Shown here: one piece after another, positions 29,335 through 52,078 of the stretch | How the letters are laid out: each line of letters starts with the position of its first letter | Numbering within the stretch: position 1 is the first letter of the stretch | Source: Catenulispora sp. EB89 | GTDB lineage: Bacteria; Actinomycetota; Actinomycetes; Streptomycetales; Catenulisporaceae | Reading direction: 5' to 3' | Length of the DNA: 64,000 bases | Assembly: GCF_041261445.1 (NCBI RefSeq) | Contig: NZ_JBGCCU010000020.1 | Location: 1 to 64,000 of the forward strand | Position numbers and translations under genes: made by a program | Notes under the pieces: generated by a model | What the model was told of the DNA's origin: nothing | Database searches by the model: none | Seen by the model: only the letters and a program-made list of their open reading frames with translations

Positions 29335-31043
29335 CGTGCTCGGCCTTTCACAGCGGTCTGGAGGTCGGCGTCGCTGGCGGGTCCGCTCGGGGCCCCCTCG
29401 CCGTCCGGGGTACCGGGCAGGGTATCGGCTGGAGTTCTGAAAGCCGGAATCAGGGCACGAGTACGCCGGAGTGTCGTGGCGGCGCCGCCGAGTCCGATCG
29501 CGGCGAGCAGCCCGAGCAGCGCGAACACGTACTCCGGCCAGGCGCCGACCCGGTCGGCCAGGGTGATCGAGGTGTTGCGGCGGACCTGCATGTCCAGGTA
29601 GCGGGCCTGGTACTCGCCGGTCTGGGCCAGGATCCTGCCGTGCGGGTCGATGACCGCCGAGACGCCGGAGGTGGCGGCCTCCATGGTCCAGCGGCCGTGC
29701 TCGACGGCGCGGAAGCGGGCGATCGCCAGCTGCTGGTAGGTCTGGCCGGTGCCCATGTAGGAGGCGTTGTTGCTGGGGACCAGCAGGACCTGGCCGCCGC
29801 CGTTGACGGCGTTGCGGACCACGTCGTCGTAGGCGACCTCGAAGCAGATCACGGCGGCCACGGTGACCCCGCCGAGGGTCAGCACGCCCTTGCCGTGGCC
29901 GGGCACGAAGTCGCGCGGGATCATGTTGAACCGCGTGATCATCTTGGTCAGGATGCCGCGGAAGGGCAGGTACTCGCCGAAGGGCACCAGGTGCGTCTTG
30001 TCGTAGGTGGCACCCATGCCGCCGCCGGGGTCCGGGGTCCAGACGATCAGCCGGTTCAGCACGTTGGTGCCCGCGGCGTTGGCGTTGATCACCGCGCCGA
30101 CCAGCACCGGGACCCCGACGTCGTCGACCGCCTGCTGGATCTCGGCGGCCACGCCGGGGTCGGAGTAGGGGTCCATGTCCGAGCCGTTCTCCGGCCAGAC
30201 CACCAGGTCCGGCTTCACGGCCTTGCCCGAGCGGATGTCGGCGGCCAGGACCTCGGTCTCCTTGACGTGGTTGTCCAGGACCGCGGCCTCCTGCTGGTCG
30301 CGGCCGAAGCCGACGCGCGGCACGTTGCCCTGGATCAGCGCGATGCGCACCGGCGTCCCGGTGTCCGGGGACTGCAACGGCACCGCGAAGCCCGCGGCGG
30401 GGATCGCCAGGGCCCCGACGACCATCAGCGCGGCCCATCTGATCGCGGCGGCCTGCCGGTCCCGGCGCAGGATCACCACGGCGCGCCACAGCAGCGTGCC
30501 GGACAGCGCCACCAGGAAGGTCACCAGCGGCGCCCCGCCGACCGCCGCGAGCGGGGTGAACGGCGAGTCCGGCTGGGAGAACGCCAGCCGGCCCCAGGAG
30601 AAGCCGCCGAAGGGCCAGCGCGAGCGGCCGAACTCCTCGGTGACCCACAGGCAGGCCTGCCACAGCGGCGCGAAGCGCATCACCGACACCCGCGCCATGC
30701 CCCACCCGAACGGGATGAAGTAGAGCGACTCGATGACGCCGACGGCTTCCTGCGCGCCGGGGCCGAAGACCCGCAGCCACTGGAACATCACCCAGCAGAA
30801 GCCGGTCCCGAACCAGAAGCCGATGAGCATCCCGCGCCGGCCGGTACGCCCGGACACCATCGCCGAGAACGCGGCCACCGCCAGCGGGGCGACCGGCCAC
30901 CAGCCGACCGGAGCGAAGGCCAGGTTCAGCGCGGCCCCGGCGAACAGCGCCAGCGCCGCCAGGCGCACCGCCTCGGCGCTCGGCCGGCCGGGCCGCCGCA
31001 ACCACCGCCGCCGGCGGGCACCGGCCTCATCCACGTTCGCCAC
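29331..31043 (-). CDS. lnt: Apolipoprotein N-acyltransferase
   Basis: A 570-residue membrane enzyme that adds the third acyl chain to the N-terminal cysteine of lipoproteins. About six membrane helices (residues 25-215) precede a nitrilase-fold catalytic domain with Glu285 (VVWPENGS), Lys349 (YDKTHLVPFGEY) and Cys400 (VICFEV). The spacings match E. coli Lnt (267/335/387). A last membrane helix lies at about 508-530, followed by a Pro/Gly-rich tail. The start is a GTG at 31043; AGGGTGGG lies ahead of it. It is coupled to ppm1, its usual partner in actinobacteria. Confidence 0.95.
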   Translation of the reverse strand: MANVDEAGARRRRWLRRPGRPSAEAVRLAALALFAGAALNLAFAPVGWWPVAPLAVAAFSAMVSGRTGRRGMLIGFWFGTGFCWVMFQWLRVFGPGAQEAVGVIESLYFIPFGWGMARVSVMRFAPLWQACLWVTEEFGRSRWPFGGFSWGRLAFSQPDSPFTPLAAVGGAPLVTFLVALSGTLLWRAVVILRRDRQAAAIRWAALMVVGALAIPAAGFAVPLQSPDTGTPVRIALIQGNVPRVGFGRDQQEAAVLDNHVKETEVLAADIRSGKAVKPDLVVWPENGSDMDPYSDPGVAAEIQQAVDDVGVPVLVGAVINANAAGTNVLNRLIVWTPDPGGGMGATYDKTHLVPFGEYLPFRGILTKMITRFNMIPRDFVPGHGKGVLTLGGVTVAAVICFEVAYDDVVRNAVNGGGQVLLVPSNNASYMGTGQTYQQLAIARFRAVEHGRWTMEAATSGVSAVIDPHGRILAQTGEYQARYLDMQVRRNTSITLADRVGAWPEYVFALLGLLAAIGLGGAATTLRRTRALIPAFRTPADTLPGTPDGEGAPSGPASDADLQTAVKGRAR

Positions 31044-31764
31044 CCGGGACCCACCCTAGAAAAGATCTGCGGACACACCTTGTGCGCACCCTATACGAGC
31101 GGTGTCTGAGTCCAGGGTCTCAAGGTTGGGGGGTTCGGGAAACAGTCGTAACCTGCTTGAAAGCTGGAGGACATCTTCGGCGGTGAGCATCAAGAAGCGT
31201 CCAGCGCAGCTGCGGAAACAGCAGCCGGCGGGTGCCCGAGCACGCGAAAACCCGGCGGCACCCTTCGGACCGGCCGCGGACCCGTTGGTTGCGAGTCCCG
31301 CGCGCCGTTGTCTACTGGATCCGCCGGGTTCCCGGTGAAGACCCACCATCTTTCGCCGCATCCGCCGCCGTGCCCCCGTCGAGTCGCCCCGGCGCCGGAT
31401 CGCACCGCGACGAGACAGGACCACCGTGCGACGCGTGCGGCCGGTGGACGTGGTCACCGACGCTACCCGGACTCCAGGGACTCCTGTCAACCAGTGATCC
31501 GACCAGTCGTGGCCTGCGCGAACGCAACAAAGGCGCAGGTCAGGCAGGGGACGGCGAAAGCCGGTGGGGCCGGTGACGATCACTCGGAAGGGCGCGGGGG
31601 ATTTTTGTGATCGAACCGTGTCGAAAGCGCCGGGCGTGGTGCGGCGGGGCGGGGCGTGGTGGATCGGGGTCGCCGGGGCGGCGGCTCACGACCTCAACGC
31701 GGCGGGGGGCGGGGCGAGACGACAGGGTGATTCCGGGTGTGAGCTTGGGGGATTCTCGTAAGCG
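31044..31764. other. Gene-poor region upstream of lnt
   Basis: About 720 bases between lnt and the foldback element. Several frames of 70-175 codons exist, but none has codon bias, a conserved motif or a convincing ribosome site. I call no gene. The lnt promoter must lie at its left end. The sequence may include decayed coding remnants. Confidence 0.5.
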
Positions 31765-33213
31765 GGTTGCGGTTTGGGTGTGGGTTTACAGGCTTTTTTA
31801 CGGCTTCGCGTGGGTGTGGCTGGTTCGGGGTGCGGTGGTGGCGGGTCGGGTGGTTGGGTGGCGGTGGTGGTGTTCACGCCCCCGGCACCGGTGGGGCCTC
31901 GTTGGCTGCGGTCGGTGACGGGGGAAGGTCGCAACCCACAACCAAAACCACAGGCCACGGGCCACAGGCCACAGGCGTGGTGAAGGGCCGGCGCCTCCGG
32001 CGGGGGCCTCGGCTCCCTCGGGGAACTGGCGCGGGTCCCTGGGGTGGCCGGGTCGGGCGGGGCGGTGGCGGCTGGTGGGGTGGTGCGGTTCGTTCCCCTC
32101 GGTCGCGTCGTCAGCCCTACGGGTACAGCGCCGAACCCCGGGAGTAAAGTCCACGCGCTGCGGTCTGGTGGGCCGGTGGCGGTCGGGTACGGCGCGGACT
32201 TGACTCCCGGGAACCGGCACTGTAGGACAAGCCCTGCCGACGCGACCGAGGGGAACGAACCGAAAACCAGCCACAGGTGTGGATGGTCTCGGGGCACGAC
32301 GGCGCGGGCCGGGCGCTGGAGCCGCTGCGGTCGCCGAAGATACCGGGCTCGGGTTCGCTGATCGCCGCCGGTTGGTCGGTCGGTGGTCCATCGATGGGCG
32401 GGCGGCGGTTGGCAGGCTCGTTCCTGGCTGCGGCAAGCTGGCCAGGCCCGTGTGGTGACCGAGGGCCGGCGAACTGTGCCGGCCGATCTGTGCCCGCCGA
32501 TCTGTGCCCGCCGATCTGTGCCCGCCGATCTGCGGCCCCTGCCGGTGCGGGGCTGACTTGCTGCCCTGCGGCGGCCGCGTTGCCGTGATCGAGGCCGCAG
32601 GCGGGAGCGCTGACCGGGGGCCACAGCACAGGAGATCGCTCGACCGGCGGCCAGCCTCAGGGACCTGTGCTCGCGCTACCCCGAACCTGTCAAAGCCCTG
32701 GCTGGTTTTCGGTTCGTTCCCCTCGGTCGCGTCGGCAGGGCTTGTCCTACAGTGCCGGTTCCCGGGAGTCAAGTCCGCGCCGTACCCGACCGCCCCCGGC
32801 CCACCAGACCGCAGCGCGTGGACTTTACTCCCGGGGTTCGGCGCTGTACCCGTAGGGCTGACGACGCGACCGAGGGGAACGAACCGCACCACCCCACCAG
32901 CCGCCACCGCCCCGCCCGACCCGGCCACCCAGGGACCCGCGCCAGTTCCCCGAGGGAGCCGAGGCCCCCGCCGGAGGCGCCGGCCCTTCACCACGCTTGT
33001 GGCCTGTGGCCTGTGGCCCGTGGCCTGTGGTTTTGGTTGTGGGTTGCGACCTTCCCCCGTCACCGACCGCAGCCAACGAGGCCCCACCGGTGCCGGGGGC
33101 GTGAACACCACCACCGCCACCCAACCACCCGACCCGCCACCACCGCACCCCGAACCAGCCACACCCACGCGAAGCCGTAAAAAAGCCTGTAAACCCACAC
33201 CCAAACCGCAACC
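31765..33213. repeat. Long foldback element 1 (1.45 kb)
   Basis: Left arm 31765-32273 and right arm 32699-33213 are inverted copies of about 510 bases. By eye they differ only by one 7-bp repeat-number indel (near 31977), one 1-bp indel (near 32044) and one substitution. Each arm itself contains a nested imperfect inverted repeat (about 32088-32154 with 32197-32262 on the left). The same module, marked by TTCCCCTCGGTCGCGTCG, therefore occurs four times in alternating orientation. The ends read inward as GTGGGTTTACAGG then TTTTTTACGGCTTCGC. No transposase, target duplication or convincing gene is present. Long frames across the arms are reading-frame shadows. Confidence 0.9.
32274..32698. repeat. 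Unique spacer of foldback element 1 with a 14-bp tandem repeat
   Basis: This 425-base centre separates the two arms. It contains three exact tandem copies of CCGATCTGTGCCCG (32483-32496, 32497-32510, 32511-32524) and a partial fourth. I see no conserved gene. The repeat has no spacers, so it is not a CRISPR. Confidence 0.85.
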
Positions 33214-38948: not shown

Positions 38949-38959
38949 AGACAAAAACT

Positions 38960-38993
38960 GCGGCGGCCCGTGGAAGAATCCACGGACCGCCGC
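38960..38993. terminator. Terminator between convergent genes
   Basis: GCGGCGG (38960-38966) pairs with CCGCCGC (38987-38993), and CCGTGGA pairs with TCCACGG inside it. The inner loop is short. It lies between the integrase-fold gene (+) and the Q-rich membrane protein (-). Confidence 0.85.
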
Positions 38994-50753: not shown

Positions 50754-50930
50754 GAGCGTGGGCTCGACGCGCGCCGCCTCGCTTCATGCGATGGCGGCGC
50801 GTGGTCGTTGTCGGTCGGGTTGGTCGGGACCATGCGCATGCTCCCAGCCCGCCGAGTTGTCGGCAGCATCCGGTATACATGCACATAAGGGGCGATTATG
50901 CCCTAACAAAATGGGCGCTGCTGACCTATG

Positions 50931-51993
50931 TGTGGGTGCTGGTGGCGGCTGCGGTTTGTTTGCGGGTTGACAGTCAAGGGCCTTTTTTGACGGCTTCGCA
51001 CGGCTTTAAGAAGGATCCGCTGGGTGGCGCAGTTCGGTGGTGTGCCTGGGGACGCATTGGCGGCCGGCGGTTGTGCGTGTGCACGACCGCGCACCGGTCC
51101 GAGTCACTGCGCACACGTCACGTGGGCGGGCGGCGGCCGCGTGTGGTGGGCACCAACAGTCAAAAGCAGGCGCCTCCGGCGGGGGCACTCGAGACTCTGA
51201 GGGATCCCCAACCCCCCGCCTCGGCGGCGGTCCGTGTGTTGGTCGCCGCGTCCCGGATCCCTCGTCGCTGACGTCGCCCTAAAGGGAACCATCCCGGCCT
51301 GGCGGTGTCCAGCCGGATCGCACGCTGCTGTGGTCGGGCTGCGTTCGGCCGGACACCGCCAGTCCGGGCTGGTTGTGCAAGCACCGCCGACAGCGACGAG
51401 GGATCCGGGACAACCCCACCTGTGGGAAGGATTCCCGCGTCTCGGGCACGCCACGTCACCACCCGCAGGTGTGCGCGCCCGAGTGGACCGTGTCCACACC
51501 ACAGGCCGGGGTTGTCCCGGGTTCCCCGTCGCGTCGGCGGGCGTAGCCAAGCTGACCGGGCCGGTGGTGTCAAGTCGCACGAAACCGCACCACAGCAGCA
51601 GGGGTCCGACTTGATACCACCGGACCGGTCTGCTTCCGTCAGGCGACGACGCGACGGGGAACCCGGGACAAAGGCAACCACAAGCAGTGTCCGCCGGCAG
51701 ACAGCGCGGCCCCCCTCCCCGGAGCGAGGCCGCTCGCCGCGCAGGCGCCGCCGGAGGCCCTGTCTTTGACTGTTGGTGCCCACCACGCTCGACGATTGCC
51801 GCCTACGCAACGCATGCGCAGTGACTCGGACCGGTGCGCGGTCGTGCACACGCACAACCGCCGGCCGCCAACGCAACCTGCGGGGCACCACCGAACTGCG
51901 CCACCCAGCGGATCCTTCTTAAAACCCTGCGAAGCCGTAAAAAGCTCCTAAAACCCACCACCAAACCGCACCCGACGCACCCACCACACCCCA
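50931..51993. repeat. Nested inverted-repeat element 2 (1.06 kb)
   Basis: An outer inverted repeat (about 50931-51187 with 51735-51993, roughly 85% identical by eye) encloses three further stem-loops. Module A is 51253-51409: a 19-bp perfect stem from CCCGGATCCCTCGTCGCTG, with a second hairpin inside. Module B is 51410-51515: ACAACCCC..CCTGTGG-type arms. Module C is 51512-51671: a 25-bp perfect stem. The outer ends read inward as TTTTTTGACGGCTTCGC, like those of element 1. No transposase or gene is convincing in the region. The whole interval 50754-52078 is gene-free. Confidence 0.88.
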
Positions 51994-52078
51994 GCCACCC
52001 ACACCCACACCCACACCCACACACCAAGCAAGGGCGCCACAAAATGCCAGCGCAGCCGCCCGGCAAAACCCGGCCCGC

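Follow-up and report, generated by a model that had tools for sequence, protein, structure and literature searches.

In eukaryotes, foldback (FB) elements have long inverted arms with internal repeats, which enclose a centre that is small and variable, and the elements from Catenulispora that are described here are built likewise. In bacteria, long palindromes are usually regarded as unstable. In the excerpt of PMC10969869 on which we draw, type II MITEs are described as resembling an IS at their ends only, and QMITE2 as lying mainly in 3′ untranslated regions. For ISL3-family ISs, 8 bp is the classical length of the target duplication, with T-tract examples such as TTCTTTTT and AATTTTTC in the excerpted part of PMC7643977. 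The window analysed here, a stretch of 64,000 nucleotides from Catenulispora sp. EB89 (contig NZ_JBGCCU010000020.1), contains a long palindrome that is probably a non-autonomous foldback transposon, belonging to a superfamily that was seen only in Catenulispora among the sampled genomes.

The class A foldback and its relatives

An inverted-repeat search placed the arms of the palindrome at exactly the coordinates that an earlier note on this DNA had given. The element, which we refer to as the class A foldback, has a total length of 1449 bp and the following parts:

31765–32273, plus strand: left arm, from the inverted-repeat alignment
32699–33213, minus strand: right arm, inverted copy, from the inverted-repeat alignment
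32274–32698, no strand: centre, 425 bp, with a 14-bp tandem repeat at ~32466–32535
32086–32262, plus strand: inner hairpin module, 71-35-71, with a covarying stem
32710–32886, minus strand: second copy of the inner hairpin module, inverted
31765–31809, plus strand: 45-nt tip of the left arm, common to class B elements (see below)
33169–33213, minus strand: 45-nt tip of the right arm

Full alignment of the arms confirmed three differences between them, a gap of 7 bases, a gap of 1 base (left 32041) and one substitution (T/G at 32177/32795), corresponding to an identity of 98.3% over 516 columns with gaps and 99.8% over 508 columns without them. The 212-nt block at 31765–31976 is exactly complementary to the other arm, and the 232-nt block at 32042–32273 is complementary with a single substitution. 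The longest exact inverted repeat in the 2.4-kb segment is thus 212 nt, whereas none of 50 mononucleotide shuffles gave one of more than 20 nt. The internal module in alternating orientation that the note had described was recovered as 71-nt inverted pairs (80%) with 35-nt loops in both arms, and the tandem repeat in the centre was found as well.

The foldback contains no recognisable gene, as had been claimed: a simple codon-usage gene caller gave none between 30968 and 33292. Long open frames are present inside it (e.g., one of 476 aa), as expected because the DNA is 72% GC. A transposase is likewise absent from the foldback; related genomes encode the probable one. At the gathering threshold, no Rfam family matched the foldback, the sole sub-threshold match being mir-341 (E 1.9), and a tRNA search of it yielded none. 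The neighbours are ordinary minus-strand genes, with Pfam LNT_N and CN_hydrolase domains on the left and Amidohydro_3 on the right, placing this copy between two same-strand, i.e., non-convergent, genes. Upstream of the LNT_N/CN_hydrolase gene, window positions 31043–31648 have ~78–90% nucleotide identity across the genus, in alignments that also include the first part of that gene. The gene caller found no gene and Rfam gave no match in this stretch, which is possibly a long conserved leader, an unannotated RNA or a small gene.

The full class A arm occurs at one site in its own genome (G000, 11.9 Mb in 70 contigs). Matches to the inner arm at E 1e-8 were found in 8 of 14 genomes of the family, all eight belonging to the genus, for which 10 genomes were available. 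Class A is single-copy in the window's genome and high-copy in C. pinisilvae NH11 (G002) and C. pinistramenti NL8 (G003), with at least 81 and at least 80 inner-arm matches, respectively. A search at the level of the order matched 17 of 293 genomes, nine of them inside the genus, among the matches listed; the eight outside it (G013 and seven genomes of one other genus) gave short matches of 42–94 bp, again among those listed. A plasmid collection searched by blastn in distant mode gave no match.

Class A arms are dispersed as inverted pairs, 28 of which were measured besides that of the window. Elements with both ends set are 1.31–1.45 kb long with centres of 273–410 bp, several of the ends used for these sizes and for the neighbour counts below having been placed by hand or estimated from partial matches. 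The centres of the 28 copies, all from G002 and G003, match one another by blastn, and the window centre gave no blastn match to them at E 1e-3. In C. pinistramenti (L065–L080), the flanks of class A fall into several recurring types, as though the elements there were located within, or adjacent to, other dispersed repeats of intergenic regions.

Over the inner 290 nt, the window arms are 99.3% alike, while their identity to the G002 and G003 copies is 80–89%, which fits the earlier suggestion that the palindrome is either recent or homogenised. In G002 and G003, unlike the window copy, the arms of one copy are no more alike than those of different copies (90.2% within and 91.5% between elements in G002; 93.4% and 93.9% in G003; pairs aligning over at least 200 columns), and the class A arms of the two genomes are ~84% identical to each other. 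The near-identity of the window arms would reflect recent formation, or else correction of one arm by the other through foldback pairing.

Class B elements, their targets and a candidate transposase

A related second foldback, absent from the earlier note, was reached via the 45-nt class A tip. The features of this element, denoted class B, and of a relevant site elsewhere in the window are:

50914–52038, no strand: class B foldback, 1125 bp, with the GGCGC... terminal repeat at both ends
50906–50913, no strand: target duplication ACAAAATG, left copy
52039–52046, no strand: target duplication ACAAAATG, right copy; a single CATTCTGT (other strand) is present at the syntenic empty site in G004
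51250–51411, no strand: class B hairpin module 1
51512–51671, no strand: class B hairpin module 2, which resembles the class A module
38952–38993, minus strand: uninterrupted hairpin and T-tract, terminator-like by eye; in G004 a class B element occupies the same T-tract

The gene caller found no gene inside the window class B element. Class B is the common kind of foldback in G000, where its arm has at least 57 matches; there are at least 54 in C. acidiphila (G001), 44 in G004 and 49 in G009. Class B ends in a 25-bp terminal inverted repeat, GGCGCYSMTGMYYKATGTGTGGGTG, a pattern written from the class B flanks themselves. With 2 mismatches allowed, this motif had 40 matches in G000, compared to 0 for the reversed control. 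Among 395 other sampled genomes of the phylum it was found in one (2 matches, with 2 mismatches each), which we consider background, since the reversed control also matched one other genome.

A scan of the fetched loci for paired terminal repeats, with up to 5 mismatches per end, produced 28 scored rows corresponding to 27 elements (L145 is represented twice, with alternative candidate left ends). The flanking 8-bp direct repeats are perfect in 10 of the 28 rows, match at 7/8 or better in 12 and at 6/8 or better in 17, a level that shuffled pairings reached in 1.3 rows on average and 6 at most; the remaining 11 rows match at 5/8 or less. Four of the ten perfect duplications have one octamer in common, CATTTTGT/ACAAAATG (opposite strands), in different surroundings. 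Arm identity and the quality of the duplication were uncorrelated (Spearman 0.11, P 0.58).

Filled and empty sites were found for individual insertions. The window copy is flanked on both sides by CATTTTGT, where the close relative G004 (amidohydrolase 97% identical) has a single CATTCTGT. The flanks of this empty site match both sides of the window element by eye, the automatic alignment reaching window position 50869. The same copy is also absent from C. acidiphila and G008, and in G009 a contig starts with a class B end within this intergenic region. At the hairpin that is uninterrupted in the window (38952–38993), the G004 element in the T-tract lies between CATTTTT copies, a duplication of 7 bases only. 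With its terminal repeats, 8-bp duplications, and filled and empty sites, class B behaves as a true transposon would. Two short relatives bounded by the terminal repeat, of 260 bp (L192:4859-5118) and 281 bp (L209:4996-5276), contain outer arms only and are ordinary MITE-sized derivatives.

These observations also bear on whether the window palindrome is a false inverted join made in assembly, as the earlier note had considered, a reading that we find scarcely credible. The assembly does consist of 70 contigs, several of which end in class B arms. However, class B foldbacks are present in the finished sequence of C. acidiphila, a single circular chromosome of 10,467,782 bp according to the excerpt of its description used here (PMC3035231). 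Moreover, inverted pairs of class A arms are present in further assemblies as well, and the window arms differ at three places (two indels and one base). As a separate matter, the right end of the G004 contig C159 (L389), CTGTCTCTTATACACATC, is presumably a Nextera/Tn5 mosaic end from a library adapter apparently left in the assembly, and 180 nt of G004 sequence (L224, contig C369) look identical by eye to a G002 sequence and may represent cross-contamination.

The target octamer, considered at 19 sites (17 class B elements and 2 ISs), is 68% A/T, compared to 28% in the stretch before it. Class B elements lie between convergent genes in 28 of the 41 cases in which neighbours were called, and between divergent genes in one, while 56 of 370 other gaps in the same loci are convergent (Fisher P 1.8e-12). 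For class A, the corresponding number is 13 of 27 against the same 56 of 370 gaps (Fisher P 1.2e-4), the window copy being outside this count. Together, these counts cover 68 of 70 elements, two having been dropped because near neighbours were missing. A stable hairpin (z below −1.5 relative to shuffles) directly precedes the target tract at 6 of the 19 sites, and the description of the target as a terminator therefore holds for a subset, and as an A/T-rich tract after a gene for most.

C. acidiphila contains an intact ISL3-family IS of 1403 bp (L239:1426-2828), the transposase of which scores 266.7 bits against the NCBIfam ISL3 model (NF033550; cut-off 180). Its ends, GGCGCCCCTGACTTATCCGTGGGTTGT and GGCGCCTCTGACTCATCCGTGGGTTGT, have 3 (left) and 5 (right) mismatches to the 25-bp class B motif, and it is flanked by a perfect 8-bp duplication, CATTTTTC, located after a strong hairpin. 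Because of the nearly identical ends and the perfect duplication, this IS is the likely source of the transposase. Local alignment between the IS and the foldback showed similarity only at the ends. In G003 and G009, the class B terminal motif is also found next to matches to the ISL3 transposase domain (PF01610). ISL3 copies with other ends (GGCTCTTCGC...) in G004 and G009 have duplications of 8/8 and 7/8. In G000 there are three PF01610 matches, none with the foldback motif nearer than 7 mismatches.

Class B elements end in the 25-bp terminal inverted repeat and have no gene of their own. They insert into an A/T-rich tract with an 8-bp duplication, mostly downstream of genes and in some cases in the T-tract after a hairpin. 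We infer that they are mobilised in trans by an ISL3-family transposase, which comes from an IS whose ends are nearly identical to theirs.

We also considered the possibility that another transposase drives the foldbacks, either an IS256-family enzyme or an IS200/IS605-like enzyme acting on the hairpins. One class B foldback in G009 indeed has an IS256-family IS (Transposase_mut) in its centre (L190:3914-5433), and this foldback, with arms that are 93–98% alike, is flanked by a perfect 8-bp duplication, TTTTCTCA. However, the IS256-family IS has its own, different ends, whereas the foldback ends match those of the ISL3 IS, and relatives of the gene at E 1e-60 occur in only 2 of the 10 genus genomes, with none in three genomes that are rich in class B (G000, G001 and G004). 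The IS256-family gene was ruled out as the driver on these grounds, and a transposase other than ISL3 appears very improbable overall. A 400-aa ORF inside a class B element of C. acidiphila (L129:6682-7881), which from its appearance we take to be an IS110-type transposase, was treated as a nested insertion rather than as part of the element.

Class A insertion sites and the hairpin modules

The genes flanking the window class A site are conserved and syntenic in the relatives. The syntenic gap lacks the element in seven of them (G001, G002, G003, G005, G006, G007 and G009), and the G004 contig stops short of the site. In G008 the corresponding position is occupied by an unrelated sequence resembling an ORF, which by eye looks like an acetyltransferase (L219:3155-3789, contig C40).

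A free search found an 8/8 target duplication in none of 18 class A copies, and a search with an ISL3-like end pattern yielded none that was convincing. No terminal repeat of the class B/ISL3 type was found in the window copy, the best candidates having 7–8 mismatches. Ends resembling GGCT(S)TTCGGGG (at most 3 mismatches) occur ~50 bp outside the tip in 16 of 45 G002 and G003 flanks, the same flanks from which the pattern was derived. Because of the failed duplication test (0/18), class A is kept here as a relative of class B rather than as an ISL3-mobilised member. Since neither a duplication nor a terminal repeat was found for the window copy, we infer its mechanism from that of class B.

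These same two absences fit an alternative in which the window copy did not transpose at all, and instead arrived by homologous recombination or horizontal exchange of the intergenic stretch, with the arms then homogenised by gene conversion. The occurrence of a single class A copy in a class B-rich genome, and of arms much more alike within the copy than to those of G002 and G003, are also consistent with such a history. We nevertheless consider it unlikely, because the conserved, syntenic flanks lack the element in seven relatives, and because class A pairs, like class B elements, occur at scattered sites and are over-represented between convergent genes. The preferred reading remains that class A as a whole, with the window copy among its members, spread broadly as class B did, and that its ends would since have decayed or diverged. 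Class A is a relative of a demonstrated transposon class, and under this reading the window copy would have arrived by transposition.

The proposal in the earlier note that the palindrome is a foldback-type mobile element is thus borne out at the level of the family, through the dispersed copies of class A and the repeats, 8-bp duplications and empty sites of its sister class, while for the copy itself transposition is presumed. The search of the genome and its relatives for the arm, which that note had suggested, revealed both copies and empty sites; no target duplication was found for class A.

The tips of class A and class B are 80% identical over 45 nt, a short GCGCCTCCGGCGGGG block is also shared, and the plan of the modules is similar. 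In a direct blastn comparison of the window class A arm with the window class B element, the modules match weakly (E 0.02). They are linked by locus L099 (G000, contig C19), since one stretch of it matches both the class A module (E 4e-10) and the side of class B module 2 (E 6e-8). The locus itself (L099:5543-5966) is diverged, with a class B-like tip and one class A-like module (68%), and is possibly an intermediate or a relic.

In 20 class A modules from 8 genomes, hand-chosen from more than 100, the 48 stem pairs considered are intact in 98.2% of cells; this count leaves out five automatically predicted pairs close to the loop, several of which are mainly G-U or often broken. Double changes affect 9 of the 48 pairs and 31 of 959 cells (shuffled mean, 6.6; slid partners, 0–1), and the weakest of five covariation measures (further pair types) was reached by 20 of 500 shuffles. 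One-sided changes were seen in 2 of the 959 cells, both G-U. RNA stems usually drift via G-U. Double Watson–Crick changes with hardly any G-U are therefore better explained by the upkeep of a DNA palindrome than by that of an RNA. This pattern, counted on related sequences, suggests palindromes that are maintained as DNA, whether by selection or through strand-switch correction. Compared between genomes with the window arm, the module is 84–91% identical and the outer arm (46–213) 63–70%. With its closing stem, the module folds with a z of −8.0 as DNA and −7.8 as RNA, compared to −1.3 for the 150-nt piece without the closing stem.

The strong fold of the module as RNA, its double-changed pairs, its higher conservation and the position of the elements at gene ends could also be taken to mean that the modules are selected as RNA between genes, for example as a bidirectional terminator, a processing site or an sRNA. 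The earlier note had likewise listed a structured RNA locus among its readings. The scarcity of one-sided relative to double-changed cells (in a count that leaves out the five loop-proximal, partly G-U pairs), the lack of a matching Rfam family and the differing presence and absence between close relatives make selection as RNA a rather improbable explanation. Under the preferred transposon reading, the conserved modules would act as DNA hairpins, with bidirectional termination between genes as a possible side effect. A more specific proposal, which we put forward tentatively and with less conviction than the transposon reading itself, is that the modules of these genus-specific, kilobase-sized foldbacks are kept palindromic as DNA cruciforms or single-strand hairpins for ISL3 transposition or arm correction, and that the elements, through insertion into A/T tracts where convergent genes end, may now form boundaries between many adjacent pairs of genes.

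Relation to known systems

The Catenulispora foldbacks are of a known kind, that of non-autonomous, IS-driven palindromic elements. New are the length of about a kilobase, the long arms, the paired similar DNA-hairpin modules, the targeting of A/T tracts after genes and the restriction to one genus in the sampled genomes; we recognised no published description of them in the open-access literature searched. Catenulispora genomes carry dozens of these foldbacks of about a kilobase despite the expected instability of palindromes, and draft contigs frequently terminate within them. The family ties the ISL3 enzyme class to unusually large passengers that contain conserved DNA hairpins and tend to insert where genes are spared. 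As a natural system, it lends itself to studying how palindromes are tolerated and corrected, and whether transposons replace terminators between convergent genes.

RUP, BOX and SPRITE of pneumococcus and REP/REPIN are tied to other enzymes. In the excerpted descriptions, they resemble the Catenulispora foldbacks as high-copy intergenic palindromes, some of them terminator-like, but are much shorter. The likeness to the FB elements of eukaryotes lies in the overall architecture and implies no homology, the Catenulispora foldbacks being bacterial, and class B having ISL3-type ends and an 8-bp duplication. With ISL3-family ISs (NF033550, PF01610), class B shares a terminal repeat that is nearly that of the C. 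acidiphila copy and an A/T-rich 8-bp duplication. Unlike these ISs, the foldbacks encode no transposase, and the similarity between the two is limited to the ends. In this respect they resemble the type II prokaryotic MITEs, which in the excerpted source are likewise non-autonomous, intergenic and capable of secondary structure, with IS similarity at the ends only; the absence of a transposase gene from both window elements is a feature of prokaryotic MITEs in general. However, prokaryotic MITEs are 50–500 bp long, whereas the foldbacks are mostly ~0.7–1.45 kb (1449 and 1125 bp in the window), with arms of ~240–510 bp, inner hairpin modules and, in some copies, other ISs nested within them.
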